Below are positions 4,703-27,648 of a stretch of 30,299 nucleotides of DNA, in pieces. The stretch covers positions 1 to 30,299 of the IMG/VR virus record IMGVR_UViG_3300020034_000055; one strand, written 5' to 3'. Each line of letters starts with the position of its first letter. The stretch's first letter is position 1. The notes under the pieces were generated by a model that had not been told where the DNA came from, made no database searches, and worked only from the letters and a program-made list of their open reading frames with translations. This DNA is from a virus. The position numbers were made by a program, and so were the translations under genes.

Positions 4703-4742
4703 AGCTATGTGGATTCTTGAGATTTTTATTGAATACATAGCT
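4703..4742 (+). promoter_or_regulatory. Hairpin abutting the second early promoter
   Basis: AGCTATGT (4703-4710) pairs perfectly with ACATAGCT (4735-4742); inside, ATTC/GAAT adds four pairs. The right arm overlaps the first T of the -35 box. It may be a weak terminator for the upstream operon (TTTTCTC follows) or an operator palindrome controlling the promoter. Confidence 0.45.
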
Positions 4743-4770
4743 TGACTTTTCTCAAATTACATGGTATAGT
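4742..4770 (+). promoter_or_regulatory. Second sigma70-type early promoter
   Basis: TTGACT (4742-4747), 17-nt spacer, TATAGT (4765-4770) with TG at 4762-4763. The 14-bp block from the -10 box is identical to that at 647-660. It would drive the two small genes and then the DNA polymerase operon. Confidence 0.85.
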
Positions 4771-4779
4771 AGTATATAG

Positions 4780-4947: not shown

Positions 4948-5139
4948 GTGTTTGTTATTCAAAGATATAACGGAAATAATTGGGATGATGGATACTCAGA
5001 TAAGTATGGATCATACTCAGAGTATTCTAAAGCCTTTGGACATTATTTAGATTGGCAATATGAACAACCAACCTCTGCATGGCGTCTTATAGTACGTCAA
5101 ACAATAGAGACAATGATTGACCAGTCCGAACCCGAATGA
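4948..5139 (+). CDS. Hypothetical small protein (GTG start)
   Basis: A 63-residue product with GTG start and ATAAGGAG (4934-4941). Strand (FVIQRYNGNNWDDGY), helix (SYSEYSKAFGHYLDWQ) and strand (AWRLIVRQTIETMID) form the same small fold pattern as products at 1680 and 3612. It is co-transcribed with and overlaps the DNA polymerase gene by ATGA. Confidence 0.7.
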   Translation: MFVIQRYNGNNWDDGYSDKYGSYSEYSKAFGHYLDWQYEQPTSAWRLIVRQTIETMIDQSEPE

Positions 5140-7040
5140 GTTCATGGGTATTTGATGTTGAAGCAAATGGATTAGATCCAAGTAAAATATATTGCTTATG
5201 TGCTAGGCATGTCGATGGTGGTGAAATCTTTGCTACTACAGATTATGACAAAATGCGCAAGATGCTCCTCAGTGCTACTGTCCTCATTGGACATAACATA
5301 CAACGTTGGGACATTGTAGTCCTTGAGCGTCTATTAGATATAAAAATTACAGCAACATTAATTGATACTCTTGCCCTGTCATGGGTATTGCGCCCTGAGC
5401 GCCTAGTTCACGGACTAGAGAGTTACGGTGAAGATTTTGGAATTCCTAAACCAGTAGTCACCGACTGGATCAATCTGACAATAGAAGAATATATACATCG
5501 TTGCACAGAAGATGTGAAAATCAACTGGCAGCTATGGAAGGAACAATTAGCATACCTCACTGAGCTCTATGGATCTCAGGAAGCTCTCTGGCCCTATCTC
5601 AAGTACATTGAATTCAAAATGGATTGTGCTAGGGAACAAGAACGATCACGTTGGAAGCTCGATGTTGACTACGTTAAAGAATCGCTTGATGCGATGCTCG
5701 TAGACAAAGAACAAAGAGTTAAAGATCTGATTGAAGTTATGCCCCGTATGCCAGTTTATGCTGTACGGTCTTACCCAAAGGTGTTTTATACTAAAGATGG
5801 AAAAATCAGTGCTAACGGACAAAAATGGCTCGACCTCTGCAATTACATGGGCCTACTTCCAGATCACACCGAAGACATTAGGGTTGTTACGAAGACAGTA
5901 CCCGGGAATCCTAATTCCTCAAGCCAAAAGAAGCAATGGCTCTTTGACCTTGGTTGGGTTCCCCAACATATAAAGCATGACAAAGATAAGCAGGGTAATC
6001 CTAAGGAGATCCCCCAAATTGCGTCGGATAAGAAAGACGGATCAATCTGTCCCTCGGTCGAGATGCTCTATGACAAAGAACCTCAACTTGAGCTTCTTGC
6101 GGGTTATACGGTACTCTCCCACCGAATCGGAGTCCTCGAAGGCTTTCTTGAGAACGTATCTCCGGACGGCTATGTCAGAGCAAGAATACAAGGCATTACG
6201 AATACCCTCAGGTTCCAACACGGTGAGGTCGTCAACCTTCCAAAAGTTGAAAGACTCTACGGAGAACAAGTAAGAGGTGCGCTAACAGTACCTTCTGGAT
6301 ACCTTTTGATTGGTGCAGATATGTCTTCCCTCGAAGACCGCTTGAAGCATCACTTCCTGTTCCCACATGACCCTGCATACGTTATACGAATGTCAGTGCC
6401 AACTTATGATCCCCATATTGCACTAGCAGAGATGGGGAGGATGATCACTCAAGCTCAAGGTGAGTTCTATGTCAAAATCGACAGACTCCTCGAAGCTAAG
6501 CAACCTGTATTACCGGTGGATATTGCAGAATATAAGCAGATTAAGTCCATTAGATCCATCGCTAAGAACGGAAACTATGCATGCCAGTACGGAGCGGGAG
6601 CATCTCGTATCGCTCTTACAGCAGGAATTAGCAAAGCTCAAGCAGAAATAGTTTGGAAAGCTTATTGGGACCTCAATTGGGCTATCCGAAAAGTAGCAGG
6701 AGAACAGATTGTCAAAGAAGTTAATAAACAGAAGTGGTTGTTTAACCCTATCTCAGGATTTTGGTATTCACTTAGGTATGAAAAGGACCGCTTCTCAACT
6801 CTTATACAAGGGTCAGCCTCTTTTGTTTTCGACAAATGGGTCTATAATTTTCGACAACACAGAAGTCAACTTACTGGACAGTTTCATGATGAAGTGGTCC
6901 TTTGTGCTTTGCTTGAAGAAGAAGAACAAGTAACTCAACTTCTGAGAGATTCAATCGACTTAACTAATAGTCAACTTAAACTTAATAGAGAGCTAGGGAT
7001 TGGTATTCAATCTGGTCTTCGCTACTCAGAAATTCACTAA
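5136..7040 (+). CDS. DNA polymerase, family A (T7-like) with 3'-5' exonuclease
   Basis: A 634-residue replicative polymerase. The N-terminal proofreading exonuclease has FDVEANGL (D7, E9), GHNIQRWD (D59) and HRCTEDV (D126). The polymerase domain has motif A GADMSSLEDR (D395), motif B RSIAKNGNYACQYGAG (R473, K477, Y481) and motif C FHDEV (H584, D585, E586). Y481 aligns with T7 Y526 and E. coli F762; Tyr there allows ddNTP acceptance and is typical of T7-like lytic phages. Length is slightly shorter than T7 gp5 (704). The thioredoxin-binding insertion of T7 is not evident. It starts by ATGA overlap, with the SSB gene 9 nt downstream. Confidence 0.96.
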   Translation: MSSWVFDVEANGLDPSKIYCLCARHVDGGEIFATTDYDKMRKMLLSATVLIGHNIQRWDIVVLERLLDIKITATLIDTLALSWVLRPERLVHGLESYGEDFGIPKPVVTDWINLTIEEYIHRCTEDVKINWQLWKEQLAYLTELYGSQEALWPYLKYIEFKMDCAREQERSRWKLDVDYVKESLDAMLVDKEQRVKDLIEVMPRMPVYAVRSYPKVFYTKDGKISANGQKWLDLCNYMGLLPDHTEDIRVVTKTVPGNPNSSSQKKQWLFDLGWVPQHIKHDKDKQGNPKEIPQIASDKKDGSICPSVEMLYDKEPQLELLAGYTVLSHRIGVLEGFLENVSPDGYVRARIQGITNTLRFQHGEVVNLPKVERLYGEQVRGALTVPSGYLLIGADMSSLEDRLKHHFLFPHDPAYVIRMSVPTYDPHIALAEMGRMITQAQGEFYVKIDRLLEAKQPVLPVDIAEYKQIKSIRSIAKNGNYACQYGAGASRIALTAGISKAQAEIVWKAYWDLNWAIRKVAGEQIVKEVNKQKWLFNPISGFWYSLRYEKDRFSTLIQGSASFVFDKWVYNFRQHRSQLTGQFHDEVVLCALLEEEEQVTQLLRDSIDLTNSQLKLNRELGIGIQSGLRYSEIH

Positions 7041-7919: not shown

Positions 7920-8798
7920 ATGAAGAATATAGACACACTAGTATCTGACATTGAAACCCTCTTGCTTGAGGGTATATCTGAACCAGACACTGAGTTGTGC
8001 GACAAGTATGGTGCAATGTTCTCTCTTCTCTTTCAGGATCGCCTGAAGCGTGAGAAGAGGGAAGGCACTCTCCGTATGAGTAATGCGGGGAAGCCTTGTG
8101 AGCGCCAGTTGTACTACGATGTGAATAACCCTGATGAAGGGGAACCTCTCCGAGCAGATACCTATGCTAAATTTCTCTTCGGAGATATGATCGAGCTCTT
8201 GTTGCTGTTCCTGTCAGAGGCGAGTGGACACAAGGTTGAAGGTACTCAAGATACTCAAGAAATTGAGGGAATTCTAGGACATAGAGATGCTGTTATTGAT
8301 GGCATGGTTGTTGATGCAAAGTCTGCATCTTCCTACGCGTTTAAGAAGTTCGCATCTGGCGGTCTTGCTGCTGATGATGCTTTTGGATATATCGACCAGC
8401 TTGGTGGGTATGTATACGCTGGTAATGATGATCCTCTAGTCACTGTTAAGAACGAGGGTGCTTTCCTCGTAATGGATAAGGTGCTTGGTAAGATTTGCCT
8501 AGACAAACATCGTTATGATGGCAAAGACTACTCAGCATTTATGAACTATAAGAAAGGTGTAGTCAATGGGAATGTTATCCCTGAAAGAGGCTTTGAGCCA
8601 GTACCTGACGGAGCTTCAGGAAACAAAAAGCTTGGCGTCAACTGCTCGTATTGTAGCTACAAAGCGAAGTGCCACCCGGGACTTCGAACCTTCCTCTACA
8701 GCTACGGACCCGTCTATCTTTCAACTGTCGCAAGAGAACCTAAAGTACCTGAAGTAAAAGCTCTAGAAGGATTACCTGATGAAGTATTTACGGACTGA
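7920..8798 (+). CDS. PD-(D/E)xK exonuclease, Cas4/RecB-like with Fe-S cysteines
   Basis: A 292-residue nuclease. The catalytic core is GHRD (H121, D123), VVDAKS (D132, K134) and the RecB-family QxxxY motif DQLGGY (Q160, Y164). Four cysteines are placed as in Cas4/AddB 4Fe-4S proteins: C60 in GKPCERQLYYD, and C242, C245, C251 in NCSYCSYKAKC. Such proteins degrade DNA from ends, probably taking the place of T7 gp6 exonuclease in recombination and host DNA recycling. AAGGA precedes the ATG. It follows the tRNA and overlaps the next gene. Confidence 0.88.
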   Translation: MKNIDTLVSDIETLLLEGISEPDTELCDKYGAMFSLLFQDRLKREKREGTLRMSNAGKPCERQLYYDVNNPDEGEPLRADTYAKFLFGDMIELLLLFLSEASGHKVEGTQDTQEIEGILGHRDAVIDGMVVDAKSASSYAFKKFASGGLAADDAFGYIDQLGGYVYAGNDDPLVTVKNEGAFLVMDKVLGKICLDKHRYDGKDYSAFMNYKKGVVNGNVIPERGFEPVPDGASGNKKLGVNCSYCSYKAKCHPGLRTFLYSYGPVYLSTVAREPKVPEVKALEGLPDEVFTD

Positions 8799-9784: not shown

Positions 9785-9959
9785 CTCTCCTAGAGATGGA
9801 ACGATTATTCAAGTCTTAGTCGATGGTCAGTGGATTAGTGATGTATTTTGGCATTACCCCGAAGGCTGGTGGTGTTATGCCAATCAGTATCAACGTGGGT
9901 ATTTTATGCCACTATCAGCTTATCCAGGACCTACAGAATGGAAGTATAATGATCAATGA
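9777..9959 (+). CDS. Small Trp/Tyr-rich protein of unknown function
   Basis: A 60-residue product starting MNDSPRDGTIIQVLVDGQW and rich in aromatic residues (HYPEGWWCYANQYQRGYF). I take ATG 9777, inside the end of the endonuclease gene, since upstream in-frame ATGs are deep in that gene. A small beta fold is likely, perhaps SH3-like (inference). It shares ATGA with the phosphoesterase gene. Confidence 0.6.
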   Translation: MNDSPRDGTIIQVLVDGQWISDVFWHYPEGWWCYANQYQRGYFMPLSAYPGPTEWKYNDQ

Positions 9960-10717
9960 GTAAACGAATAGTAGTAGTACCTGATCCCCACTCACATTGG
10001 GAATTTTCTAACGATCGCTTCTCATGGCTCGGTGAGTTCATGGTTGATATTAAGCCTGACATTGTTGTCAATATTGGTGATCACTTTGATATGCCCTCTC
10101 TGTCTGAATTTGACAAGGGTAAGCGCTCATTCGTGAGCAAGAACTATAAGAAAGATATCGCAGCTGGACTAGACGCACATGATCGTATGTGGGGTCCAGT
10201 TCGTCGACAGAAAAAGAAACGACCCGAAGCATGGGTCTTTGAAGGTAATCATGAGCACAGAATCGAACGAGCTCTCGATAGTACTCCTCAGCTTGAAGGA
10301 ACTATCGGATTCGGTGACTACGAGTTTGAAAGATATTACGACCATGTGGTCCGATATACAGGCAGTACTCCGGGAATTAGAGAAATCCAAGGGATTCAGT
10401 TCGCTCACTACTTCGTTACAGGCGTTTCTGGACGACCCGTATCTGGGGAACGTCCCGGACACATGCTTATCAACAAGTACGGCACTAGCTGTATACAAGG
10501 ACATACACACGTCCTTGACTATGCAACTAGAAAATCTCCGTTTGGCAAAGTTATGCACGGAGCAGTACTTGGCTGCTATCAGGACTATATCAACGACTGG
10601 GCAGGCAACATAGGCAATATGTGGAGGGGCGGTATAGCTGTCCTTGATAACGCAGAAGATGGCAACTTCGATTTCCGATGGATCTCGATTGAAAGCCTCA
10701 AGAAGGAATACGCATGA
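9956..10717 (+). CDS. Calcineurin-like metallophosphoesterase (second copy)
   Basis: A 253-residue protein with DPHSH (D10, H12), NIGDHFD (D42), EGNHEH (N98, H99), AHYF (H151) and QGHTH (H183, H185), the complete dinuclear metal site. It differs strongly from the enzyme at 3799 and is longer; the start VVPDPHSHW and DMPSLSEF helix are like phage phosphatases placed among replication genes. Possible substrates are nucleotides, DNA ends or protein phosphate. Neighbours (endonuclease I, nuclease) suggest DNA processing. Confidence 0.9.
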   Translation: MSKRIVVVPDPHSHWEFSNDRFSWLGEFMVDIKPDIVVNIGDHFDMPSLSEFDKGKRSFVSKNYKKDIAAGLDAHDRMWGPVRRQKKKRPEAWVFEGNHEHRIERALDSTPQLEGTIGFGDYEFERYYDHVVRYTGSTPGIREIQGIQFAHYFVTGVSGRPVSGERPGHMLINKYGTSCIQGHTHVLDYATRKSPFGKVMHGAVLGCYQDYINDWAGNIGNMWRGGIAVLDNAEDGNFDFRWISIESLKKEYA

Positions 10718-11086: not shown

Positions 11087-11344
11087 TTGGTAAAAGATAA
11101 AAAGCGCAATTACGCTAAAGAGAATGCATGGGAGGATCAGCCTGAACAGGTTGCTCGTCGTATGGCAAGGAATCGGGCCCGAGCTGCAGCAATGCGCAAG
11201 GGACTCGTGAAGAAGGGTGACTCTAAAGAAGTTGACCATCTGGGGTTTAACCGGAAGGGCGACTTGAATAACAAGAAAGTTAAAGTAGTTACTCGTAAAG
11301 CGAACCGTTCCCGACAACCAAAGAGGGACGGAAGTAATGACTGA
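11087..11344 (+). CDS. Small basic HNH-like protein (TTG start)
   Basis: An 85-residue very basic protein. The N-terminal half is an Arg/Ala helix (RRMARNRARAAAMRKG). Then KEVDH (D50, H51), LNN (N61, N62) and TRKANRSR (N73) follow the spacing of a compact HNH nuclease fold, though the first His of HNH is absent (Asp50-His51 replace the usual pair). It may be a DNA-binding protein or nuclease of the phage HNH type. TTG 11087 has AAGGAG at 11072-11077. Confidence 0.65.
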   Translation: MVKDKKRNYAKENAWEDQPEQVARRMARNRARAAAMRKGLVKKGDSKEVDHLGFNRKGDLNNKKVKVVTRKANRSRQPKRDGSND

Positions 11345-11576
11345 AGATAATAAGCATGAAGTTAATAAAAAGCAGTGGAAGAAGTGGAACGAAACAAGTA
11401 AAGACGTTTTCAACGGTTTGTATGAGTACATGGGCGAAAACCAACACTTGTTTCTCCATCCACAGACAATTATAATTCCACATGAATACTGGAACGTAAC
11501 AGCTTGGAATGCAGCTTGGATTGCTGCAGAGATGGTACGACAGTCTGAAAAGAAACAAAAGGAAATAACTGAATGA
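11337..11576 (+). CDS. Hypothetical protein with Trp-rich helix
   Basis: A 79-residue product beginning in the end of the HNH-like gene (8-nt overlap). It is Lys/Asn-rich and includes NVTAWNAAWIAAEMVRQ, an amphipathic Ala/Trp helix, before a basic tail. No family recognised. It shares ATGA with the next gene. Confidence 0.65.
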   Translation: MTEDNKHEVNKKQWKKWNETSKDVFNGLYEYMGENQHLFLHPQTIIIPHEYWNVTAWNAAWIAAEMVRQSEKKQKEITE

Positions 11577-11737
11577 TTTATACAATTGGACTACTCGCAG
11601 TCGCAGCCGTAGGTGCTGGCCTGTACTTTAAGAAGGACGAAACTGTTGCCCTTCTCAAGAACGCAGTAGCTTGGGTTGTTGCCGTTGGCACAGCTGCTAT
11701 CGCTTACTTTGGCTTCGACGTTTCGAGCCTGTTCTAA
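11573..11737 (+). CDS. Small membrane protein before the structured leader
   Basis: A 54-residue product with two hydrophobic stretches: residues 3-19 (YTIGLLAVAAVGAGLYF) and 32-48 (AVAWVVAVGTAAIAYFG), joined by a charged loop (KKDETVALLKN). It ends with two stops (TAATAA). It is the last gene of the upstream group, directly before the noncoding region that precedes the channel cassette, so it could also serve the membrane system. Confidence 0.65.
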   Translation: MIYTIGLLAVAAVGAGLYFKKDETVALLKNAVAWVVAVGTAAIAYFGFDVSSLF

Positions 11738-11749
11738 TAACTACAAAAT

Positions 11750-11839
11750 TATAAAATGTTTCCAACTCAGTTGTTGGCGCTCCCGTGTAATGGTGTAGTT
11801 AAATGAGTATTAACTCAGCTATAAACGAAACATTTTATA
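11750..11839 (+). ncRNA. Structured intergenic RNA, closed by a 13-bp stem
   Basis: The segment 11750-11762 pairs perfectly with 11827-11839 (AT-rich 13-bp stem, 64-nt interior). Inside are CAAC/GTTG (11763-11766, 11770-11773 or shifted) and AGTTAA/TTAACT (11797-11802, 11810-11815, loop ATGAGTA). The heptamer AACTCAG is present twice (11764, 11812), and the GAGT in the second loop could pair with ACTC, allowing alternative folds. It does not fit a tRNA (no T-arm) or a hammerhead core. It could be a small RNA or the sensing part of a leader. Confidence 0.55.
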
Positions 11840-11843
11840 TTAA

Positions 11844-11877
11844 GGGGAGGCTTCTTAACCGGAGCTTCCCCATTTTT
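11844..11877 (+). terminator. Intrinsic terminator
   Basis: GGGGAGGCT (11844-11852) pairs with AGCTTCCCC (11863-11871) over 9 bp with one G-U, loop of 10 nt, followed by ATTTTTG. It ends or attenuates transcription from the upstream genes. Confidence 0.75.
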
Positions 11878-11885
11878 GTCTCCGG
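11859..11885 (+). promoter_or_regulatory. Alternative hairpin overlapping the terminator (possible antiterminator)
   Basis: CCGGAG (11859-11864) pairs perfectly with CTCCGG (11880-11885). The left arm uses the terminator loop and the first two bases of its 3' arm, so this hairpin and the top of the terminator are mutually exclusive. A GCCC/GGGC hairpin (11885-11895) and ACAGTT/AACTGT (11903-11919) follow, just before the AAGGAA of the next gene. Confidence 0.45.
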
Positions 11886-11933
11886 CCCAGAGGGCTTGGA
11901 TAACAGTTTGAAGAACTGTAAAAAGGAATCTTA

Positions 11934-12440
11934 ATGCTTAAGAATCTTCTCATTTATCGTATGACTCTTCTCAATATCATCTTCTTCACACTACTTGGAG
12001 TAGGATATACACTTGGCTACACTCAATTGGTATTTACTTCTGATCATACTTATATCACTTCCGTCATTAGTGGTTTGTTCCTTGTTGGCCTCGTGGGCTG
12101 CTATAGCCGAGCGTCCAAGGTGGCTGTGGCACTTAATAATCTCAAGTCGGGAGAAGAAGTAAATCGTGCTGACATATCTAAAATGCCAATCAAAAATGCC
12201 TACCTATCTACTATTCTTAATTCTCTTACAGGCTTGGGGATTTTGGGTACTGTTGCTGGTATGTATATTATGTCTCATGAAGTAGATCTCACTGCTTCCA
12301 ATGCAGCACAGATCCTTCTAGGTAACCTTGGTATTGCATTCATGTGTACCTTTGCTGGTATCTTCACTACAATCTGGTTGGAGTTCAACGTATGTATGTT
12401 GAATACAGCTACAGCACTCTTGGTGAAAGATAGTGAATAA
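11934..12440 (+). CDS. ExbB/TolQ/MotA-like proton-channel subunit
   Basis: A 168-residue inner-membrane protein with four hydrophobic segments (about residues 11-30, 41-58, 96-114, 127-150). The C-terminal part has the family signature: LTGLGILGTVAGMY (G105, T106, G109) and GNLGIAFMCTFAGIF (T139, G142), which match GTVWG and ATAIG of ExbB, including the polar Thr pair lining the pore (ExbB T148, T181). It is shorter than ExbB (about 244). Family members form pentamers around a dimer of the ExbD type and couple ion flow to mechanical work. RBS AAAAAGGAA. The next gene overlaps by TAATG and looks like the partner. Confidence 0.75.
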   Translation: MLKNLLIYRMTLLNIIFFTLLGVGYTLGYTQLVFTSDHTYITSVISGLFLVGLVGCYSRASKVAVALNNLKSGEEVNRADISKMPIKNAYLSTILNSLTGLGILGTVAGMYIMSHEVDLTASNAAQILLGNLGIAFMCTFAGIFTTIWLEFNVCMLNTATALLVKDSE

Positions 12441-13012
12441 TGACTCATATCTTAAAGGCATATATCGACGCCCTCCTAGTAATGGTATTGGGGCTGTTCC
12501 TTGTGATCACAACGATGAGCATCGAGGCGAAGAAAGCTCAGGAGGATCACAAACAGATAGCAATGATCGAAGCGAGCATAGCTTGGCCACAGGGAGATAT
12601 CGACGTAGACCTCTGGTTGAATGGCCCCGGGCAGGATCGGGCTACAGGGTATTCGAACAAATCTGGGATTACTTGGGACCTACTAAGGGATGATCTTGGT
12701 ACTGTAGCTGATAACTTTCCAATGAACTATGAGAATGGTTTCGTAAGAAACTTTGCTCCCGGAGAGTACACAGTGAATGTTCACTACTATCGTGATCGTG
12801 CTAATCATGGTCCTGTCATTGTGGCGATCGAAGTCCAGATTGAAGTCAATAACCGAAAGCAAGTTATCTCTCGTAAGGTGGTCTTGAACCACATAGACGA
12901 AGAGGTCACAGCAATTAACTTCACAGTAGATGAAGAAGGGAATGTCTCAAATGTCAATGAAGTCTATACGCCCCTCAGAACTGCACAAGCCCGTGAAGGA
13001 GGTCCGGAATGA
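12440..13012 (+). CDS. ExbD/TolR/MotB-like partner with a periplasmic domain
   Basis: A 190-residue protein with a short cytosolic N-terminus, one membrane helix and a large periplasmic part. AYIDALLVMVLGLFLVITT (residues 7-25) aligns with FIDVMLVLLIIFMVA of ExbD; Asp10 takes the place of the proton-carrying Asp (ExbD D25, MotB D32). Residues 54-135 have a beta-rich domain (DVDLWLNGPG, GYSNKSGITWDLLRDDLG, NFAPGEYTVNVHYY) reminiscent of the DUF2135/YfaP-type beta-sandwich rather than a peptidoglycan-binding OmpA domain. It is coupled by TAATG to the channel gene and by ATGA to the next. Confidence 0.7.
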   Translation: MTHILKAYIDALLVMVLGLFLVITTMSIEAKKAQEDHKQIAMIEASIAWPQGDIDVDLWLNGPGQDRATGYSNKSGITWDLLRDDLGTVADNFPMNYENGFVRNFAPGEYTVNVHYYRDRANHGPVIVAIEVQIEVNNRKQVISRKVVLNHIDEEVTAINFTVDEEGNVSNVNEVYTPLRTAQAREGGPE

Positions 13013-13491
13013 ATACTCTAATCTTTTCATCTGCGTTGATCACTACAATTCTCGCGGTGAGTACCTATATAGCAATCTGGAGCAGAAAGCCAACAAATGC
13101 TAGGCTCCTCGCTCTTGTTCTTCTTATTCCGTTGGGTCTGCTTGGTGCTGGGAGTGCTGGGATTAATCTCGGTCATCCTTCTATTTGCTTCGCTGGGTAC
13201 AATATTCCAACTGGTAAACTAGATATTCTAGGATTTAAGGTAATCAAAGATGACATCATATACCTTACGCTTGACACCGGAGGAAGAGAACCTTTTACTT
13301 GCTCCACTCCTTACAGCAACCAAAAAGCTGAACGACTGGAAGGGGATAAACGATCAGGTAAGAAGTCTCAGTTTAAGGGTAAAGGAACTGGAGGAAAGAG
13401 TCAAGGACTCGGAGAACCAGACGATATCATCCTCCCTGCCCCCGTTGAAGCTCTCCCCGACAAAAGTGTGGAAGAGCCAGTGCAGTTGTGA
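13009..13491 (+). CDS. Membrane protein of the channel cassette
   Basis: A 160-residue protein with two membrane helices (about residues 5-25 and 33-51, ARLLALVLLIPLGLLGAGSA), a small middle domain (NIPTGKLDILGFKVIKDDII, then YLTLDTGGREPFTCSTPYSN) and a Gly/Lys/Pro-rich low-complexity tail. The layout, TM pair then a TPYSNQKAERLEG-type segment, is that of small phage membrane proteins I recall next to the channel gene pair, without function. Part of its 3' half overlaps another long frame at 13250. Confidence 0.65.
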   Translation: MNTLIFSSALITTILAVSTYIAIWSRKPTNARLLALVLLIPLGLLGAGSAGINLGHPSICFAGYNIPTGKLDILGFKVIKDDIIYLTLDTGGREPFTCSTPYSNQKAERLEGDKRSGKKSQFKGKGTGGKSQGLGEPDDIILPAPVEALPDKSVEEPVQL

Positions 13492-13528: not shown

Positions 13529-15115
13529 ATGGAAACCAAATTCGCACAAACAGGATTGGAATGCCCCTGCAAACGCAGCCGTGACGCTTATTGTATTAAC
13601 GAAGATGGTTCCGGTAAATGCTTTCGTGGGGATTGTGAGGAAGGGCCTATGAAGAATGGGTTCTTCCCTAATAAACCTTTTGATGAAGATAAAGTGTTTG
13701 ACTACGATCTAGCTCCTAATGAATCGTTTGAGTACCTTCCCTATCGAGGGATCAGTGCTAAAACATATGAATTTTACAAAGTACAATCAAAGGTAGTAGA
13801 TGGAATACCAACAGAAGTCGGCTTCATCTTCCCAAATGGCGCAGTTCAGGTTCGATCTCTTATCTATCCTAAATCGGACAAGAGACACTTCAGGACTGTT
13901 GGTCCTATGGGAGCCTCAGGATGCTTCGGAACTGATCGATTCGATCGAGGGAGCAGAGAATCTATCATCATATCAGAGGGAGCATACGATGCGTTGGCTT
14001 GCCTTGACATGCTTCGAAATAAATTTGCTTCTATCTCCGTCAAAAGTGTTTCCTCTTGTCTCACAGAAGTAGAACGAGACTATGATTACATTAACTCTTT
14101 TGATAAGATATATCTATGCCTGGACAATGACGAAGTAGGACAAGCTAAGATTGCTAAGATTGCAGCTATGTTTGACTTTAACAAAGTCTATCATGTCAAA
14201 CTATCGAAGTGGAAAGATCCAAATGAGTACCTACTTAATGGGGATGGTTTTGATTTTGTTAGGGTTGTCGATAACGCCCGTCGCTTTAGTCCTAAGTCTA
14301 TTATCTCCGGATTTGGAGAGATTAAAGAAGCACTTAAGCTTAAGCAAGCTGAAGCAGTGGCTGAGTACCCATTTGAACAACTAAACACAGCACTGAAAGG
14401 ACTTCACAAAGGTGAGTTTATTTGTATCAAAGGCAAGCAGGGAATTGGCAAGACAGAAATCTGCCGAGCAATTGCTGATACTACACTCCGCAATAGAGAA
14501 ACTAAAATCGCAACCGTCTTCTTGGAGGAATCTCAGGACACGACTATTAAAGGAGTCGCAACGTATCAGCTCCGACAACCGGCTATGGACGAAGAGGCAG
14601 GACTCTCAGATGAAGACATTCTTAATGCGTATATGGAAGCCGTTAATGGGGATGATTCTCGTCTTTATATCCACTCCCACTTTAGTGGAGACTCTGAGAC
14701 AGAGATCGTTGATAACCTCCGATTCCTCGTTACTGTTGCTGGTGTTGATCTTGTTTTCCTCGATAATCTCACTATGCTCGTATCTGGACGTGAGGGAGAA
14801 GATGAACGAATGCGAATTGACCGTATCATTCGTCGTCTTCGGGGTCTTGTTAATGAGCTTAAGTTCTGCCTTGTCCTCATTGCCCATACTAACGATGATG
14901 GGACTACTCGTGGCTCTCGTCTTCCAGATATATTGTGCAATACGGTCATCTCGATGAAAAGAGAAATCCCTAGTACTACTCTCAATCTTACAGTAGAAAA
15001 GCTACGTACTCAGGGTGGTAAGGCTGGACCTGCAGGGTTTGCTGTATACGATACAAATCAATACGTATTGCTTGATCCAACTAAAACTTCTAAGGAGAAT
15101 GTGCCATCCCTATAA
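13529..15115 (+). CDS. Primase-helicase (T7 gp4-like)
   Basis: A 528-residue bifunctional protein. An N-terminal Cys-rich zinc module (C12, C14, C22, C31, C36; CPCKRS and CFRGDC) precedes the TOPRIM primase core with SEGAYDA (E150) and LCLDNDEVG (D199, D201). The C-terminal SF4/DnaB-type helicase has Walker A GKQGIGKTE (K308, T309), EES (residues 333-335), Walker B LVFLDNL (D412) and IAHTN (H453). It unwinds the replication fork and makes primers. RBS AAAGGA. The gene is compact relative to T7 gp4 (566 residues). The start of the next gene overlaps its end. Confidence 0.95.
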   Translation: METKFAQTGLECPCKRSRDAYCINEDGSGKCFRGDCEEGPMKNGFFPNKPFDEDKVFDYDLAPNESFEYLPYRGISAKTYEFYKVQSKVVDGIPTEVGFIFPNGAVQVRSLIYPKSDKRHFRTVGPMGASGCFGTDRFDRGSRESIIISEGAYDALACLDMLRNKFASISVKSVSSCLTEVERDYDYINSFDKIYLCLDNDEVGQAKIAKIAAMFDFNKVYHVKLSKWKDPNEYLLNGDGFDFVRVVDNARRFSPKSIISGFGEIKEALKLKQAEAVAEYPFEQLNTALKGLHKGEFICIKGKQGIGKTEICRAIADTTLRNRETKIATVFLEESQDTTIKGVATYQLRQPAMDEEAGLSDEDILNAYMEAVNGDDSRLYIHSHFSGDSETEIVDNLRFLVTVAGVDLVFLDNLTMLVSGREGEDERMRIDRIIRRLRGLVNELKFCLVLIAHTNDDGTTRGSRLPDILCNTVISMKREIPSTTLNLTVEKLRTQGGKAGPAGFAVYDTNQYVLLDPTKTSKENVPSL

Positions 15116-17244: not shown

Positions 17245-17387
17245 CAGATGATGTATTTTCCCCAGCTATTGCTAAATTAAAGCTAGCAAAGAAAGATCAG
17301 CAGATTGATCTGTTACAGATGGAGATACGTATCCTCAAGGAGACAATCCAGCTGATGGCAGGTACACGAAAGGTTACAATTGATTAA
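17241..17387 (+). CDS. Small coiled-coil protein (TTG start)
   Basis: A 48-residue frame with TTG at 17241 sharing TTGA with the previous stop and GGAG at 17229-17232 (8-nt spacing). The sequence is a heptad-type coiled coil (KDQQIDLLQMEIRILKETIQ). It fills the gap before the reductase gene, whose TTG start lies in its last codons. Confidence 0.55.
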   Translation: MTDDVFSPAIAKLKLAKKDQQIDLLQMEIRILKETIQLMAGTRKVTID

Positions 17388-19302
17388 TCCATTCCCAACC
17401 GACTATGAACAATTCATTTATAAATCACGCTATGCCCGATGGGTAGAAGAAGAGAAACGACGTGAGTCATGGGACGAGACAGTTACTCGCTACCTCAGTT
17501 TCCTTCGTGACCATGTAGCTGAGAAACATGATTACATTCTAGATGACTCCACTTATAGAGAGCTATGGGATGCAATCTATAACTTTGAAATCATGGGCTC
17601 TATGAGAGCTCTAATGACTGCGGGGCCAGCACTTGCACGAGACAATACAGCAGGATACAATTGTGCCTACGTCGCTATCGATGATCCTAAGGCCTTTGAC
17701 GAGGCTATGTTTATCCTTCTATGTGGAACAGGAGTAGGGTTCAGTGTTGAAAGGCAGTTCATCTCTAAACTACCCGAAATTCCGGAAAAGATGTTTGCAA
17801 GCGAAACAACAATCGTTGTCAGAGATTCGAAGGAAGGTTGGGCTAAATCATTCCGACAACTCTTGGCTCTACTATATTCGGGGGAAATACCCAAATGGGA
17901 TGTCTCCCGGATACGTCCTGCAGGGTCAAGACTCAAGACGTTCGGAGGAAGAGCTTCAGGTCCTGCACCTTTGGAAGACCTATTTAAGTTTACGATCGCA
18001 ATCTTCAAAGCAGCGATGGGACGACGGTTATCCAGTATTGAAGCACATGACATATTGTGTAAAATTGGAGAAGTCGTTGTCGTTGGAGGTGTTCGTCGGT
18101 CTGCGATGATCAGCTTAAGTAATCTAACAGATGATAGAATGAGGAGAGCTAAAAGTGGAAACTGGTGGGAAGATTTTGGATACCGAGCACTGGCTAACAA
18201 CTCTATTGCCTTTACTGAAACTCCAGATACGGGAGCCTTTCTTAGAGAATGGACTAGTCTCTATGAGTCTAAATCTGGGGAAAGGGGTATCTTTAACCGT
18301 GTCGCGTCAGTCAAGCAAGTAAAGAAAAATGGACGAAGGAATCCTAACTATGAGTTCGGAACCAACCCCTGTAGTGAAATCATACTTAGATCAAAACAAT
18401 TCTGTAACCTATCGGAAGTTGTTGTCAGGGCAACAGACACAGTGGAATCTCTTTGCAGAAAGGTACGACTTGCTACTATCCTTGGAACTCTGCAGTCCAC
18501 ACTTACTTTCTTCCCATATCTTCGAAAAGACTGGACTAAAAATACTGAAGAAGAGAGACTCCTCGGAGTGTCCCTTACTGGGATACTTGACAATGCAGCA
18601 ATGGGAACAAATGATCTCAACCTTGTCAAAATCCTCCTAACACTGAAAGAAGAGGCTATCAATGTCAATAAGTCCTACGCTGAGGGTTTGGGCATTCCTC
18701 AATCTACTGCTATTACTTGTGTTAAGCCTTCAGGGACTGTCTCTCAGCTCGTCGATAGTGCTTCTGGTATTCATCCACGCCACAGTGATTATTACATTAG
18801 GACTGTGCGTTGTGATAACGGTGATCCACTCACACAATTCATGAAACTAGCAGGAGTCAAGAATGAACCTGATGTCACTAAACCAGACAAAACTACGGTC
18901 TTTAGTTTCCCAATACGAGCTCCTGAGGGAGCAACAACTAGGGTTCATTTGTCTGCCCTTGATCACTTGGAGTTATGGAAGACATACCAAGAGTATTGGT
19001 GTGAGCATAAGCCGAGTATCACTGTATCCGTTAAAGAACGAGAATGGCCACTGGTGGGTGGTTGGGTATATGAAAACTTTGAATCTATCTCTGGTGTCTC
19101 CTTTCTTCCATATACAGACCATTCGTATCGTCAAGCGCCATATCAAGAAATAGATCAAGATGAGTACGAGCTTCGTATGCGTGATATCCATGATCCTATT
19201 GATTGGAATCTTTTGAGTGCATTTGAAGATGAAGATAAAACAGCAGGATCACAGAGCTATGCTTGTTCTGGAGATGGCTGTGAAGTTGTAGACTTAACCT
19301 AA
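17380..19302 (+). CDS. nrdJ: Adenosylcobalamin-dependent ribonucleotide reductase (class II, monomeric)
   Basis: A 640-residue enzyme that makes deoxyribonucleotides using vitamin B12. Motifs include AGYNCAY (C95), FGTNPCSEI (thiyl Cys C331, E333), FCNLSEV (C342), KPSGTVSQL and GIHPRHSDYYIRTVR. The C-terminal tail has CSGDGC (C629, C634), the external redox pair of class II enzymes. It matches the Lactobacillus RTPR family but is about 100 residues shorter. C95 and C342 would be the local reductant pair. TTG 17380 has GAAAGG at 17368-17373. The adjacent glutaredoxin may regenerate the tail. Use of B12 makes it oxygen-independent. Confidence 0.95.
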   Translation: MINPFPTDYEQFIYKSRYARWVEEEKRRESWDETVTRYLSFLRDHVAEKHDYILDDSTYRELWDAIYNFEIMGSMRALMTAGPALARDNTAGYNCAYVAIDDPKAFDEAMFILLCGTGVGFSVERQFISKLPEIPEKMFASETTIVVRDSKEGWAKSFRQLLALLYSGEIPKWDVSRIRPAGSRLKTFGGRASGPAPLEDLFKFTIAIFKAAMGRRLSSIEAHDILCKIGEVVVVGGVRRSAMISLSNLTDDRMRRAKSGNWWEDFGYRALANNSIAFTETPDTGAFLREWTSLYESKSGERGIFNRVASVKQVKKNGRRNPNYEFGTNPCSEIILRSKQFCNLSEVVVRATDTVESLCRKVRLATILGTLQSTLTFFPYLRKDWTKNTEEERLLGVSLTGILDNAAMGTNDLNLVKILLTLKEEAINVNKSYAEGLGIPQSTAITCVKPSGTVSQLVDSASGIHPRHSDYYIRTVRCDNGDPLTQFMKLAGVKNEPDVTKPDKTTVFSFPIRAPEGATTRVHLSALDHLELWKTYQEYWCEHKPSITVSVKEREWPLVGGWVYENFESISGVSFLPYTDHSYRQAPYQEIDQDEYELRMRDIHDPIDWNLLSAFEDEDKTAGSQSYACSGDGCEVVDLT

Positions 19303-21376: not shown

Positions 21377-21420
21377 AAAAAGCCCCCTTCAGATCCTCAC
21401 GGGTCCGTTGGGGGCTTTTT
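21377..21420. terminator. Bidirectional intrinsic terminator between convergent operons
   Basis: AAAAAGCCCCC (21377-21387) and GGGGGCTTTTT (21410-21420) form a perfect 11-bp stem with U-tracts on either strand, and GATCC/GGGTC in the loop extends it. It serves the + strand operon (last gene at 21372) and the - strand operon (last gene stop at 21423). Confidence 0.95.
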
Positions 21421-21422
21421 CT

Positions 21423-24400
21423 TTATTTACTCATAAGATTTTTCTTCTGAGTCTTTGTGTAGTCTTTATCATCACTCATAGGTGCTCTGATCCCAGCTTT
21501 AACCATAGACTTTCGGAGGAAAGCCTTCATCTCAGGAGATGCAGCACCAGCGTCCTTAGCCATATACTTCTTAGCTTCTTTAGAGAAGTTAGAAGCATCA
21601 CTGAGAATGTACTCAGAGAAGATCCTAAGCTTGTCTTCAGGATCCATAGCATCAATAGCAGCAGAAGTGATAGTCTTAGCACGAGTAGCAGCAGGGTTCA
21701 AGACACCCAACGTCCATGTGATCAGACGACCTACACCTTGGATAGAACCAGCCTTAGAAGCCTTGTTAGCAGCAGCTAATTCAGCACCTGTGTTGGTAGC
21801 CAACTTAGAAGCATCAGAAGCTTCCTTCGTGAGTCCAGCAATGAACTCTAGAGCTTGGGGCTCATCCTTGAAGATTTCTAGACCAGCCTGATAGAGATCA
21901 TCACCTTCAGCGAAGGTAGCAGTCTCATTAGATTTAAGGGCAGGACGATCAGAGGCTAGGCCTCCTTTAGTAGCACCCTTCTGACGCTTAGTCTTGTCGA
22001 AGAGACGTTCACGGAACTTACGGATGTAAGCAGCCCGAAGACCACGTTTAGCAGACTCATCACCTGAGCGATTGACTGCATTGACTACGTTCTTCAGCTT
22101 ACTGGACTGTCCCTTATCGAGAACATCATCGAATGCCTTTAGAGCATCCTCAGTATTTTTGTAAGGCTTACCAGTACCACCACCTTCAAAGAAGTCCTTG
22201 AAGTTATTCCCAAAGATTTCTAGATCAGCATCTTCTTGAGCTTTACGAGCAACCTTAGCCTCTTCACCAAACTTCTTAATGTCGATCTGGCCATCTTTGA
22301 TACGCTTGAACAGAGTAGTAAGTTCCTTACCCATCTCTGGGTTCGTAGCATTGATCTGAGCCATACGCTTCTTGAGTCCAGCAGAAAGTTTGTCTGCAGA
22401 GATCTCAGAGAGTACACCACCATTAGCAATGTGAGTAGCCACTTCATCAGTGACATCATCGACTAGGGTAGCATCAAGTAGGTGTTGAGAAGAACCAGAA
22501 CCCGTCTTAGGATTGGCTAGTACATCAGCCATCTGCTTCGTCAAATCAGGTTGTTCAGTAGCCTTGGAGATAGTCTCCTTACGTCCAGCAGCTTCCTTAG
22601 CTGGGCTCAGACGATTATCTTTTGAGATAGTCCTGAGATCACCAGTTACGTCAGACCTCTGTACAGGAGCCCAATCATTCTCATAGAAGTTATTCCAGTT
22701 ATTGATACTCTCATCTTTAGGGGTATTAACCTTTATCAACTCGTCTAGATCTTGAAGATCTCCGACAGCATTGACATTAGGATTCTGGAAGGCTTTGTCT
22801 TTCTCATACTTGAGCTGTTTGATTGCGGCAGTCAGCTTCTTGTAATCAATAGACTTAAGCCCAGCAGGGCCTTGAGATGTAGCATCTGTGACTTTCTGGA
22901 GGAACTTCTTAGAGACTATACCAGAATCAGCTAGCTCTTGAGTCTTAGCCAAAATCTCATTAGGATTATTCATCCCTAGACCTTCTGGTATAGCCTCAGT
23001 ACGTTTCTCTAGTTCTGCATCGAGAGTAGCAGCCTTAGCTTTAAACTCTTTATCAATCTTAGTAATATTAGTATCCCTAGTAGCGAACTCCTTCTGGAGA
23101 GCTTCGGGACCAGCATTCTCTAGTTCAGTAGCACGATCACCAATAACTTTGTTAGTCTTGATATCCGCTTCTAGTGCTTGTTGAGAACCAGTAGCCATTT
23201 GTTCTGCTTCATTAGCAGTCTCATGGAAAGGTGTAGATTCATTACGAGCTTCAGTCTGTACAGTGTCACGAGCTTTATTAATATTCTCGGGAACACCTTC
23301 AACAACATTTCCACCTTCATTCTTTAGCATAGTCTCAGTACCCTCATGAAGGGCATCACCGACTTGGGCATCAGCTCTATCAAGTGGTCCAAGGGACTTC
23401 TGACGAACAGAACCTTCCATATCTTGGATCTGAGTAAGAGCTTCTGGAGAAATACCTGAACGATCAGCAGCATGGACAGTACGACGATTGACATCGATAT
23501 CACCAAGGTCTACATTACCAGACTCTAGTTTAAATCGAGTTTCATCATCAAGCATCTCCAATGCTTTCTGGCGAAGAGGGGCTTTCTCAGCAGCAGTAAG
23601 TTGTTTCTCTGGATCAATACCTGCAACAGTATCAAGGAAGTCAAGAACCATATTCTTTTGACGGAGGTCAAGAGATACGAAGTTCTTAATCTTATCGATA
23701 GTTGCACCCATGACCAGCTTACCAAGCTTACCTGCACCAGATGCAGCTACACCAGCTACAGCACCAGTTCCGATGGAATCAGTAACAAGATCAAACCTCT
23801 TACGAAGTAGGTTGTCACTGTAAGTACCATCTTTGTCAGTACCCAAAGCAGGGAGTGACTTACCGATGAGTTTCTCAGAAAGAGAATTCTCTCCTGTCAT
23901 GAGCAGTGGGTTGTCTGCACTCTGGGTTAGCCCGGGACCAACGTTACCACCAATAAAGGTAGTAGCAGCACGAGCAATCTTCCCGAGATTAGCAACTTGG
24001 TTTACCTTAGAAGCAATGCCAATACCACCAATGGCACCAGCACCCATTTCACCAATGTCAACAAAGAACTGTTGTGTAGCATCTTTACCTTTGAATTCAG
24101 GAACAGCTGTACGGAAGTCTTTAGCCAAAGTAGACTGACCACGACCTTCAAGTTCATTGAGCTTATCAGCTCCAGCAAGACCTAGTTCAACTACGTTAGT
24201 ACCAGCATTAATAACACCCTTACCTACACCAGAAGCATTGCTTCCAGCTTCCGTTACGATATCAGTAGCCATTTGGCCACCTGACTTTGTAGGAGGTTCT
24301 ACCCTTTTACCATCATACACAAGACCATTCTCGGTCTGCTGTGACTTAGGATGCTTTGCATAAGCACCATAGAGCTTCTTTTGACTGTCAAAATCTAGAC

Positions 24401-24722
24401 CTTCAAAGATACCCTCTGGATCAGGTAAATCAGCAACCTCTCCTTCGGGAGGAGCAGTGCTTGTAACTGCAGGAGCTTCGTACTGATCAGAAACAGGAAC
24501 TGAAGTAAAGTTACCTGATTCATCTACAATGTCCTCAGTCCTACCTTGAGCATGTGTCTGAGGGGCCACAGGAGCCTCTGCAGGGGGTGCTACAGAGGCT
24601 TGAGGGGCTGGAGGTAGGATATCATCAAGAGGATTAGCTTCCGCTTGTGAGGGGCTTGCTACAGAGGCCTGAGGCTTAACTGTGGCTAGCAGGTCGTCTA
24701 GCGGATTCTTTTCTTCTTCCAT
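21423..24722 (-). CDS. Very large virion protein, probably internal/ejection protein
   Basis: A 1,099-residue protein, mostly Ala/Lys/Glu/Asp-rich helices. The N-terminus carries a repeated unit: NPLDD (residues 6-10, 30-34) with QASVA (18-22, 41-45). The region at residues 150-350 has hydrophobic, glycine-rich helices (VDIGEMGAGAIGGIGIASKV, DSIGTGAVAGVAASGAGK) suited to membrane insertion. Coiled-coil-like segments follow to the C-terminus (PMSDDKDYTKTQKKNLMSK). Size, place at the end of the late operon and composition resemble the ejected internal proteins of T7-like phages. RBS CAGGAGG overlaps the previous stop. No catalytic motif identified. Confidence 0.7.
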   Translation of the reverse strand: MEEEKNPLDDLLATVKPQASVASPSQAEANPLDDILPPAPQASVAPPAEAPVAPQTHAQGRTEDIVDESGNFTSVPVSDQYEAPAVTSTAPPEGEVADLPDPEGIFEGLDFDSQKKLYGAYAKHPKSQQTENGLVYDGKRVEPPTKSGGQMATDIVTEAGSNASGVGKGVINAGTNVVELGLAGADKLNELEGRGQSTLAKDFRTAVPEFKGKDATQQFFVDIGEMGAGAIGGIGIASKVNQVANLGKIARAATTFIGGNVGPGLTQSADNPLLMTGENSLSEKLIGKSLPALGTDKDGTYSDNLLRKRFDLVTDSIGTGAVAGVAASGAGKLGKLVMGATIDKIKNFVSLDLRQKNMVLDFLDTVAGIDPEKQLTAAEKAPLRQKALEMLDDETRFKLESGNVDLGDIDVNRRTVHAADRSGISPEALTQIQDMEGSVRQKSLGPLDRADAQVGDALHEGTETMLKNEGGNVVEGVPENINKARDTVQTEARNESTPFHETANEAEQMATGSQQALEADIKTNKVIGDRATELENAGPEALQKEFATRDTNITKIDKEFKAKAATLDAELEKRTEAIPEGLGMNNPNEILAKTQELADSGIVSKKFLQKVTDATSQGPAGLKSIDYKKLTAAIKQLKYEKDKAFQNPNVNAVGDLQDLDELIKVNTPKDESINNWNNFYENDWAPVQRSDVTGDLRTISKDNRLSPAKEAAGRKETISKATEQPDLTKQMADVLANPKTGSGSSQHLLDATLVDDVTDEVATHIANGGVLSEISADKLSAGLKKRMAQINATNPEMGKELTTLFKRIKDGQIDIKKFGEEAKVARKAQEDADLEIFGNNFKDFFEGGGTGKPYKNTEDALKAFDDVLDKGQSSKLKNVVNAVNRSGDESAKRGLRAAYIRKFRERLFDKTKRQKGATKGGLASDRPALKSNETATFAEGDDLYQAGLEIFKDEPQALEFIAGLTKEASDASKLATNTGAELAAANKASKAGSIQGVGRLITWTLGVLNPAATRAKTITSAAIDAMDPEDKLRIFSEYILSDASNFSKEAKKYMAKDAGAASPEMKAFLRKSMVKAGIRAPMSDDKDYTKTQKKNLMSK

Positions 24723-24723
24723 A

Positions 24724-26853
24724 TTAACCTCCTGTTAGGACTTTAACTGCGGCACCTTGACCGAACTTAGCATCAAACTGAGCTGGAGTGACAATCTTCT
24801 TACGAAGCATATCAATAGCTTTAGTCTGAACATCTGGGGGTAGAGTGGTTAGATCATGAGTACCCGGTGCTGCTTCAGGGGCTGCTGTAGGAGCAGGTGT
24901 AGCAGTTGGGGTGGGATTAGGTGCGTCTGGATCGATCGGAGAAGGATTTCCTTCAAGAACCAACTTACCATTGTACAAATCAGGATCTGTCTTTTCATCC
25001 ACATTCGCTAGACGTTCTTTAGGTGTTTCTACCTGAACTTCATAAGGAACATATCCGAACTGATTGTAGAAGCCCTTAGTCTGAGCTTTCACGGTATCAG
25101 CCTGACGAGTAATAGTATCATCGGACTGCTTGAGAAGAGAAGCAACCTTCATGCGGAACTGAGGATAGTTGGAAGCGTCAAAACCTGCACCAATCATCTT
25201 ACGTTCTGTTTCAGCCAAGTTACGACCTGTCTGACCCAAGGTAGCTGCAAGACGATATGTCAAGAGAGCCTTCTGGGTTTCAGCCAATGCACCAGCGTTA
25301 GCTTGCTTAGAGATTGGATTGTCAGCTTTGTTCACACGTTCTTGTAGTGCTTTGGCTTGTTTCTCAAGTCCATCAATAGCGAACTCAGAAGAATACTCAC
25401 TATCTGTTGAACGAGCCAATAGATCAAAACCAGCAGTAACTTCGTTTGCAACATCTTGTGCAGCTGAAGCAGCCATTGTAGAATACTTCTGAAGTGCCTC
25501 TGGGTTCTCTCTATAAGTCTTATCAAGGGCACCTACACCACTGACAAAACCAACATGGTTGTCAAGAGCAGTACGATATTCCTGTACTTCCTTACCAGCA
25601 GCTTTCTGCAGATTATCACGCTCTGTCCACTCACGCTTATCCATCTTACGGATTCTGTTAGTATCTACTGGATTACCTTCGATGTCAACAAGTTGTCCAT
25701 CAGCATTCTCAGTTACTTTAACAGTACCCTTCCAAGTAGGTTTACCATCAGGTCCCGGGTCACCGAAGACGTTGACATAAGTACCTTCAGCTGTGAGGCC
25801 TTGCGAAGCAGCAGTCTGTTCAGCTTTGATCTTGCCAGCTTGGATAATTGAGTTAGTACGACGTTCAGCAATAGCGATACGCTCAGGATCATTAGAAGCC
25901 TTGGCACTATCAAGTTCAATCTGTGCTTCTTCCAAGGTATTAATCTTGTCAGGTTCAGCTTGAGCCTTAGCGGGAGTCCAACGAATATCTGTGGACTGAC
26001 CAGCATCAGGAGATACATAAGGATTGAAAGCTTCATCAACTTCTTCTCGGGAAAGACCAAGGCCCTGACCGATTGAGTCTTTAGCTGTAGAGATAGCGTT
26101 AGCACGAGACTGAACACCACCACCATTACCAAAGGTATCACGCATGAAGTCCATAGCACCACCACTCGAAGGAGCAGCTTGTGGGGCTGCCTGAGGGGCA
26201 GCTTGGGGAGCCTGAGGTTGTTCAGTAGCTTCAGGTCCAGCGACCATAGTATCCTGAGGAGCAGCCTTAGGACGAGTACCGAACTTCTTACCAGATAGAC
26301 CAGTCAGTAGTTTATTATTTGTCTGTCCTGCTTCTGGATCTTCCTGAACCATTGTAGGATCAGGAGCCTTAGCAGTACAGACAACGATACCGAGAGCCTG
26401 TGTCTGTTCAGCTGCAGCATCGACTGGAGCAGCATTAGAACCTTGATCTGGGGCAGCAGCTGTAGGGTCAACAGGAGCAGCTGCAGATGGATTGGCCGAA
26501 GCGGAACCAGCTACAGGGGCTGTAGGGGTCTTAGCAGTCTCTACAGGCTTCTTGATTCCTGTACCAACTTCGAAGGTCCCTTGCATACGCTTTTCAATCT
26601 CAGCATCTGAGAGATCAGCTTTAACCCATTTGTATATTTCAGGCCATGCTTCTGGGTTTTTCTCAGCTGCATAGGCTTTAGCTTTACGAACAGCCAACTG
26701 ATCTTCTTTCTGATCCTTGGATCGTTGTTCACGAGCCTTGGAGAATTCAGAGAAGGTCAGCTTGAAGGCATCATCCTTACGCTGTTCACGTAGTTCATCA
26801 TTCTTTTTTACACCTTCAGCGAAGGCAGGGCCGAAGCCAGCCATGAAACCCAT
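24724..26853 (-). CDS. Large virion protein with Pro/Ala/Gln-rich linkers
   Basis: A 709-residue protein. It begins MGFMAGFGPAFAEGVKKNDE with charged coiled-coil (residues 15-60), then low-complexity segments rich in Pro, Ala and Gln around residues 105-165 and 195-225 (PQAAPQAAPQAAPSSGG), a helical core and another Pro/Thr/Ala linker (ATPAPTAAPEAAPG) before a C-terminal helix. It is probably an internal virion or DNA-ejection protein. GAAGAGG precedes the start. Stop is one base before the next gene. Confidence 0.65.
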   Translation of the reverse strand: MGFMAGFGPAFAEGVKKNDELREQRKDDAFKLTFSEFSKAREQRSKDQKEDQLAVRKAKAYAAEKNPEAWPEIYKWVKADLSDAEIEKRMQGTFEVGTGIKKPVETAKTPTAPVAGSASANPSAAAPVDPTAAAPDQGSNAAPVDAAAEQTQALGIVVCTAKAPDPTMVQEDPEAGQTNNKLLTGLSGKKFGTRPKAAPQDTMVAGPEATEQPQAPQAAPQAAPQAAPSSGGAMDFMRDTFGNGGGVQSRANAISTAKDSIGQGLGLSREEVDEAFNPYVSPDAGQSTDIRWTPAKAQAEPDKINTLEEAQIELDSAKASNDPERIAIAERRTNSIIQAGKIKAEQTAASQGLTAEGTYVNVFGDPGPDGKPTWKGTVKVTENADGQLVDIEGNPVDTNRIRKMDKREWTERDNLQKAAGKEVQEYRTALDNHVGFVSGVGALDKTYRENPEALQKYSTMAASAAQDVANEVTAGFDLLARSTDSEYSSEFAIDGLEKQAKALQERVNKADNPISKQANAGALAETQKALLTYRLAATLGQTGRNLAETERKMIGAGFDASNYPQFRMKVASLLKQSDDTITRQADTVKAQTKGFYNQFGYVPYEVQVETPKERLANVDEKTDPDLYNGKLVLEGNPSPIDPDAPNPTPTATPAPTAAPEAAPGTHDLTTLPPDVQTKAIDMLRKKIVTPAQFDAKFGQGAAVKVLTGG

Positions 26854-27475: not shown

Positions 27476-27648
27476 TAACGTGGTTCTCCCTGATTAAGCC
27501 AATCGATTTTAGATCCAAATTCACTCTCTTCGAACCTGTCGAAGTATTTCTTGTTATACTTGAACTTAGATACTTCTTGCATAGCTTTGCCAGACTTACC
27601 CTGCCAGTACTTTTTAATAACTTGATCAACAGTTTCTTCAAAGGTCAT
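27475..27648 (-). CDS. Small virion-operon protein (57 residues)
   Basis: Start at 27648 shares ATGA with the previous gene's stop and end at 27475 shares TAATG with the next start. The product begins MTFEETVDQVIKKYWQGKSG and continues EVSKFKYNKKYFDRFEESEF; it is basic and probably helical. The exact fit into the gap, with both overlaps, makes it convincing though short and easily missed. Function unknown; a small structural or assembly factor is likely. Confidence 0.7.
   Translation of the reverse strand: MTFEETVDQVIKKYWQGKSGKAMQEVSKFKYNKKYFDRFEESEFGSKIDWLNQGEPR

Follow-up and report, generated by a model that had tools for sequence, protein, structure and literature searches.

Does the gap ahead of an ExbB-like gene in an uncultured virus hold an RNA that decides whether RNA polymerase goes on, or an ordinary terminator standing behind a folded RNA? 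The question concerns positions 11738-11933 of the window, that is, of the whole stretch of 30,299 bases analysed here (record IMGVR_UViG_3300020034_000055), for which a sequence-only reading had proposed an attenuator-like leader. Our analysis somewhat favours an intrinsic terminator behind an orphan folded RNA, placed where one operon gives way to the next or at a polarity point within an operon.

Gene order and promoters around the gap

The gap itself is as had been described: 196 nt without genes, running from the stop codon of a 54-aa ORF up to the ATG start of gp1, the ExbB-like gene, in a region that gave no DNA match in the phage collection. Upstream, the + strand carries a DNA polymerase (5136-7040), a Cas4-like exonuclease (7920-8798) and a phosphoesterase (9956-10717), and several small ORFs besides the named genes. 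Directly before the gap lies the hydrophobic 54-aa ORF (11573..11737, + strand), which has coding-like codon use (0.196 bits/codon) and no homologue in phages, and whose stop codon abuts a 5' hairpin described below. Downstream, again on the + strand, comes a cassette of three genes: gp1 (11934..12440), a membrane protein of the MotA/TolQ/ExbB family (PF01618, E 1.5e-7); gp2 (12440..13012), its conserved partner with the motifs WPxGDxDVDLW and LLRDDLG, for which no Pfam, PHROG, NCBIfam or PADLOC family was found; and gp3 (13009..13491), with homologues in L002, L004, L049-L053 and other loci. A primase/helicase (13529..15115) and a ribonucleotide reductase (17380-19302) follow 3' of the cassette on the same strand. 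Replication genes flank the gap on both sides, and the earlier idea that its terminator parts the replication genes from the channel cassette does not hold, since the primase-helicase and the ribonucleotide reductase also lie downstream of that terminator.

Elsewhere in the window, the strongest RNA fold of a coarse scan (8001-8120, -52.1 kcal/mol, z -7.0) is a long hairpin in coding sequence, inside the Cas4-like exonuclease gene and shortly after a tRNA-Asn gene. On the - strand, three large ORFs of 1099, 709 and 550 aa (21423-24722, 24724-26853 and 27645-29297), without PHROG or NCBIfam match, occupy the place where structural genes would be expected. Between the convergent gene blocks, a strong inverted repeat flanked on either side by T/A tracts (21377-21420) is likely a bidirectional terminator.

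Two clear sigma-70-like promoters with an extended -10 were recognised upstream, at 624-652 and 4742-4770; the sites at 624-660 and 4742-4778 have the same extended -10 and start region, TATAGTAGTATATA, and are likely the main rightward promoters. Neither the interval from the terminator to gp1 nor that from gp3 to the primase showed a convincing sigma-70-like promoter, the best matches being ordinary for intervals of those lengths. It follows that the primase has to be supplied by read-through, by an antitermination factor or by an unrecognised promoter, and it is mainly because of this need for a supply past the terminator that a regulated role should not be dismissed. At the end of the 54-aa ORF, a weak promoter-like match on the + strand (TTGGCT-18-TCTAAT, 11709..11738, its -10 preceded by TG) would place an RNA start near 11745. 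This is the best match in 11690-11760, at about the 99th percentile for that length; its -10 lacks the conserved A at the second position, and it fails the rule of the promoter scanner.

Predicted RNA structures in the gap

The gap as a whole is unusually structured, with an MFE z of -4.56 and none of 200 shuffles as stable. Its clearest element is an intrinsic terminator on the + strand (11844..11878), made of a stem at 11844-11854/11861-11871, a 6-nt loop and the sequence ATTTTTG with its U-tract at 11873-11877. The stem has 11 pairs, seven of them G-C and two G-U, before the run of five U (dG -19.3 kcal/mol, pair probability 0.997), and so presents the two marks of an intrinsic terminator, a stable G+C-rich hairpin and a U-tract immediately after it. 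It ranks first among the 21 terminator-like sites in the window, a total that is at chance level, so that strength is what sets it apart. Between the terminator and the ribosome-binding site, two short + strand hairpins (11881-11900 and 11903-11919) together reach -15.7 kcal/mol (z -2.0). Both the terminator and these two hairpins had been noticed by the sequence-only reading and stand; as predictions the hairpins of the gap are real, and the terminator is predicted to be strong.

The antiterminator that had been drawn with it fares differently. The 6-bp GC-rich hairpin CCGGAG/CTCCGG (11859-11864/11880-11885, + strand) does exist in the sequence, and we judge it incidental and not a real competitor, at -7.1 vs -19.3 kcal/mol and a mean pair probability of about 7e-10. 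Some 12 kcal/mol weaker than the terminator, it costs the whole leader 12.8 kcal/mol when forced, and 13% of shuffles offer, by chance, a 6-bp match to some stretch of the terminator's 3' arm. Moreover, an antiterminator has to form ahead of the terminator and capture its 5' arm (PMC4538822), whereas this hairpin pairs part of the 3' arm with bases past the U-tract, which would be transcribed only after the decision to terminate and would be unable to regulate it. Order of synthesis, energy and chance frequency rule it out, and the claim of a mutually exclusive terminator and antiterminator fails with it: the wrong arm is captured, too late and far too weakly. A search of upstream partners found no nested antiterminator capturing the 5' arm above chance; the best candidate, which pairs GCGCTCCC (11777-11784) with that arm, is equalled by 19% of shuffles and crosses both upstream folds, and was rejected. 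In nascent chains, an 8-pair precursor hairpin at 11840-11858, of only about 4 kcal/mol, is displaced by the terminator.

Upstream of the terminator the predictions are of another kind, as two folds exclude each other. In conformer A (11750..11839, + strand; -24.8 kcal/mol, z about -4.1) a domain with small hairpins at 11763-11776, 11777-11788 and 11794-11823 is closed by a 13-bp stem, TATAAAATGTTTC/GAAACATTTTATA, at 11750-11762/11827-11839. This stem, already described as perfect, is indeed so: no other perfect stem in the window (loop up to 100 nt) reaches even 12 bp, which makes it the longest, with 0.067 stems of at least 13 bp expected per shuffled window and none seen in 3000 shuffled leaders. 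The interior alone, 11763-11826, is not significantly structured (z about -1.4). Conformer B is a 5' hairpin (11738..11801, + strand; -18.5 kcal/mol, z -4.06) which the sequence-only reading had overlooked, and which appeared on folding nascent chains of growing length. Its base is a perfect 8-bp helix, TAACTACA/TGTAGTTA (11738-11745/11794-11801), beginning at the first base past the stop codon of the 54-aa ORF and topped by an inner stem, and it precedes the synthesis of 11827-11839. The segment 11738-11826 reaches -23.3 kcal/mol (z -4.31; none of 2000 controls as good with the 13-nt arm fixed and the rest shuffled) and the 8-bp helix alone has a p of 0.008, values to be discounted somewhat because the hairpin was spotted while viewing a handful of chain lengths. 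A small hairpin, TGAGTATTAACTCA (11804..11817, + strand; -4.0 kcal/mol), is common to both conformers.

The 5' hairpin excludes the 13-bp stem, save for a possible pseudoknot. In the nascent chain that includes the terminator, conformer B is predicted at -44.1 vs -46.4 kcal/mol for conformer A, that is, less stable by 2.3, and the terminator stays whole in both; these values come from folding with the usual parameters for 37 °C, which take neither proteins nor pseudoknots into account. Folding thus predicts a genuine two-state system upstream, with the terminator untouched in either state. The comparable stabilities that a regulated attenuator or riboswitch requires are found only between these two upstream folds, and the other hallmark of such systems, an antiterminator that is transcribed first and shares the terminator's 5' arm, is absent here.

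The gap might also be read as coding, and this we consider very improbable indeed. A 43-codon open frame on the + strand (11803..11934), also missed earlier, runs across the terminator and ends as TAATG on the start of gp1; its 43-aa product would be translationally coupled to gp1, and its translation would keep the terminator unfolded. A frame of this length from ATG occurs in 2.4% of shuffled leaders (7% from any start), which, with the TAATG junction, speaks for a gene. Against it, the codon score falls at the 2nd percentile of the window's real genes, GC by codon position has a non-coding pattern (0.33/0.37/0.51 vs 0.54/0.37/0.38 in genes), no homologue of the frame was found, and the Shine-Dalgarno, by reading the sequence, is weak (GGTG). 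With coding statistics against it, the frame was rejected as a gene and is probably a chance ORF.

Relatives of the cassette and of the leader

The cassette is widespread: it was found at 36 IMG/VR loci, in 264 confirmed GTDB stretches (80 kept, mostly alphaproteobacterial) and in nine rhizobial phage records. The gp1/gp2 pair (11934-13491; L042-L160) is conserved among rhizobial phages and across many alphaproteobacterial genomes, and occurs twice per genome in some Azospirillum. In the phages RHph_I3_11, RHph_TM3_3_14B, 16-3 and RHph_X2_25 the cassette genes are packed straight behind other ORFs, and L002 and most viral loci likewise have the cassette directly behind other ORFs, without a leader. 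A gap of about 240 nt does precede gp1 in L046-L048, with a different, weak terminator-like hairpin and with sequences unrelated to the leader; terminators preceding the cassette may have evolved on more than one occasion. From the upstream side, L162 and L163 carry the upstream block, with a homologue of 11087-11344 (58-59% identity), and continue straight into other genes, again without the leader. The nearest relatives by primase, L003 and L004 (about 60%), begin 3' of the leader position and are silent on this point.

No relative of the leader itself was found by blastn against phages and plasmids, by blastn against 238 loci, by two structure-aware patterns run on IMG/VR, or by a covariance model that combined the 13-bp domain with the terminator and was run on 84 + 80 sources and 14 whole records, this being a single-sequence model of limited reach. 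Matches of that model in L169, L075 and L085 (E 0.07-0.7) were put down to chance, being heavily truncated or having many of their pairs broken. Neither at the gathering threshold nor at E up to 10 did this strand of the leader match Rfam, its riboswitch and leader families included, and a tRNA, a degenerate tRNA or a known RNA family was likewise discarded as its identity for want of a match.

The sequence-only reading had accepted that loss of the hairpins in homologous genomes that keep the genes would speak against it, and this is largely what was seen: most relatives of the cassette, as well as L162 and L163, lack the leader, in a comparison among distant relatives of about 30-60% protein identity. 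The leader as a conserved companion of the cassette was discarded, as it is absent from most of them. From its distribution it looks private to this lineage, or to belong to relatives beyond those compared, and it may be a recent acquisition.

Readings of the locus and known systems

We infer that termination occurs in the gap, that it is constitutive and not regulated, and that the folded RNA has a role at the 3' end. Polymerase coming from the upstream early genes would make a compact RNA of about 100 nt, folding first as the 5' hairpin 11738-11801 and able to rearrange to the form closed by the 13-bp stem. It would then meet the terminator (11844-11877), where most transcripts would end by default, the folded RNA then forming a protected 3' terminus for the upstream message or persisting as a stable small RNA some 130-140 nt long. 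Expression of the ExbB-like cassette, and probably also of the primase-helicase, would depend on the fraction that reads through or on an unrecognised promoter. This ordinary terminator is argued for by its rank as the strongest in the window with a pair probability of 0.997, by a proposed antiterminator that is too weak and too late with none on the 5' arm exceeding chance, and by two conformers that both spare it (-44.1 and -46.4 kcal/mol). It is also argued for by a leader that is no conserved companion of the cassette or of the upstream genes and has no Rfam family, and by the lack of a convincing sigma-70-like promoter from the terminator to gp1 or from gp3 to the primase. On the other side, two exclusive and near-equal folds, each with z about -4, exceed the needs of a plain 3' UTR, and the lack of an obvious promoter between the strong stop and the primase-helicase and ribonucleotide reductase beyond it points to some means of overcoming that stop.

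A compact fold joined directly to a terminator is also the typical anatomy of an sRNA, and the locus might be a discrete sRNA gene acting in trans, with a promoter where the 54-aa ORF ends and a product of about 134 nt comprising the 13-bp domain and the terminator. The promoter-like match would start such an RNA just before the 13-bp stem and leave out the competing 5' strand. We hold this to be unlikely, given the defective -10, the failed scanner rule and the lack of any homologue found, and given that the significant 5' hairpin would then go unused. Regulated attenuation, or cis antitermination by RNA, we regard as fairly unlikely. The choice between the 5' hairpin and the 13-bp stem would here alter termination at 11844-11877, and would depend on a ligand, on a phage protein or on a ribosome halted at the stop of the 54-aa ORF abutting the hairpin, the effect passing through a pseudoknot or RNA polymerase contacts and not through a classical antiterminator. 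Such a scheme draws on the two exclusive, nearly isoenergetic and individually significant folds, on the co-transcriptional order that places the 5' hairpin first, on the position of the terminator before essential replication genes without a recognisable promoter, and on the precedent of HK022 put for antitermination without proteins (PMC9378689). It is weakened by a terminator stem that neither fold touches, by the lack of a nested antiterminator above chance, and by the failure to find a conserved family for the leader or a homologue that could show covariation.

Of the attenuator-like leader first proposed, the structured domain and the strong terminator ahead of the cassette remain, and the antiterminator scheme as drawn does not. 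As that arrangement is real, polar or conditional expression downstream is possible; regulated attenuation by another route is possible but unsupported. Quite improbable, in our estimation, is a phage regulatory RNA of a new class, in which a domain of about 100 nt, bistable or pseudoknotted, would begin immediately past a stop codon, and its two exclusive folds, governed either by a factor or by translation of the small ORF, would gate polymerase into the cassette and the primase-helicase. An ordinary terminator would matter chiefly as a boundary of transcription in an uncultured phage; were read-through controlled by a two-state RNA, the locus would be a small, directly testable control point made of RNA alone and placed before phage replication genes.

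Several known systems resemble parts of this arrangement. Type III toxin-antitoxin loci share the order of folded RNA, terminator, ribosome-binding site and gene, but 11738-11933 holds no tandem repeat array and the gene behind it belongs to PF01618 (MotA/TolQ/ExbB) and encodes no endoribonuclease; without repeats and without a downstream toxin gene, this identity was rejected. The put RNA of HK022, of about 70 nt, forms two stem-loops and antiterminates without protein factors (PMC9378689). Conformer B together with the hairpin 11804-11817 would give a similar two-stem-loop outline over about 80 nt, also preceding a terminator and in an operon of the phage early type, but the 13-bp fold is predicted to be more stable; there is no demonstrated relationship of sequence or structure, and put lies near early promoters, none of which is evident here. 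The Bacillus subtilis rplJL leader also has overlapping structures and a terminator ahead of its gene, with an antiterminator that lies before the terminator and overlaps it (PMC4538822), whereas here the proposed antiterminator follows the terminator and the real competition spares it. With the intrinsic terminators at phage operon boundaries, finally, the gap shares a G+C-rich hairpin, here of 11 pairs, with the U-tract directly after it and a place between co-oriented gene blocks; unlike them, it first presents about 100 nt of significantly folded RNA in two competing conformations.
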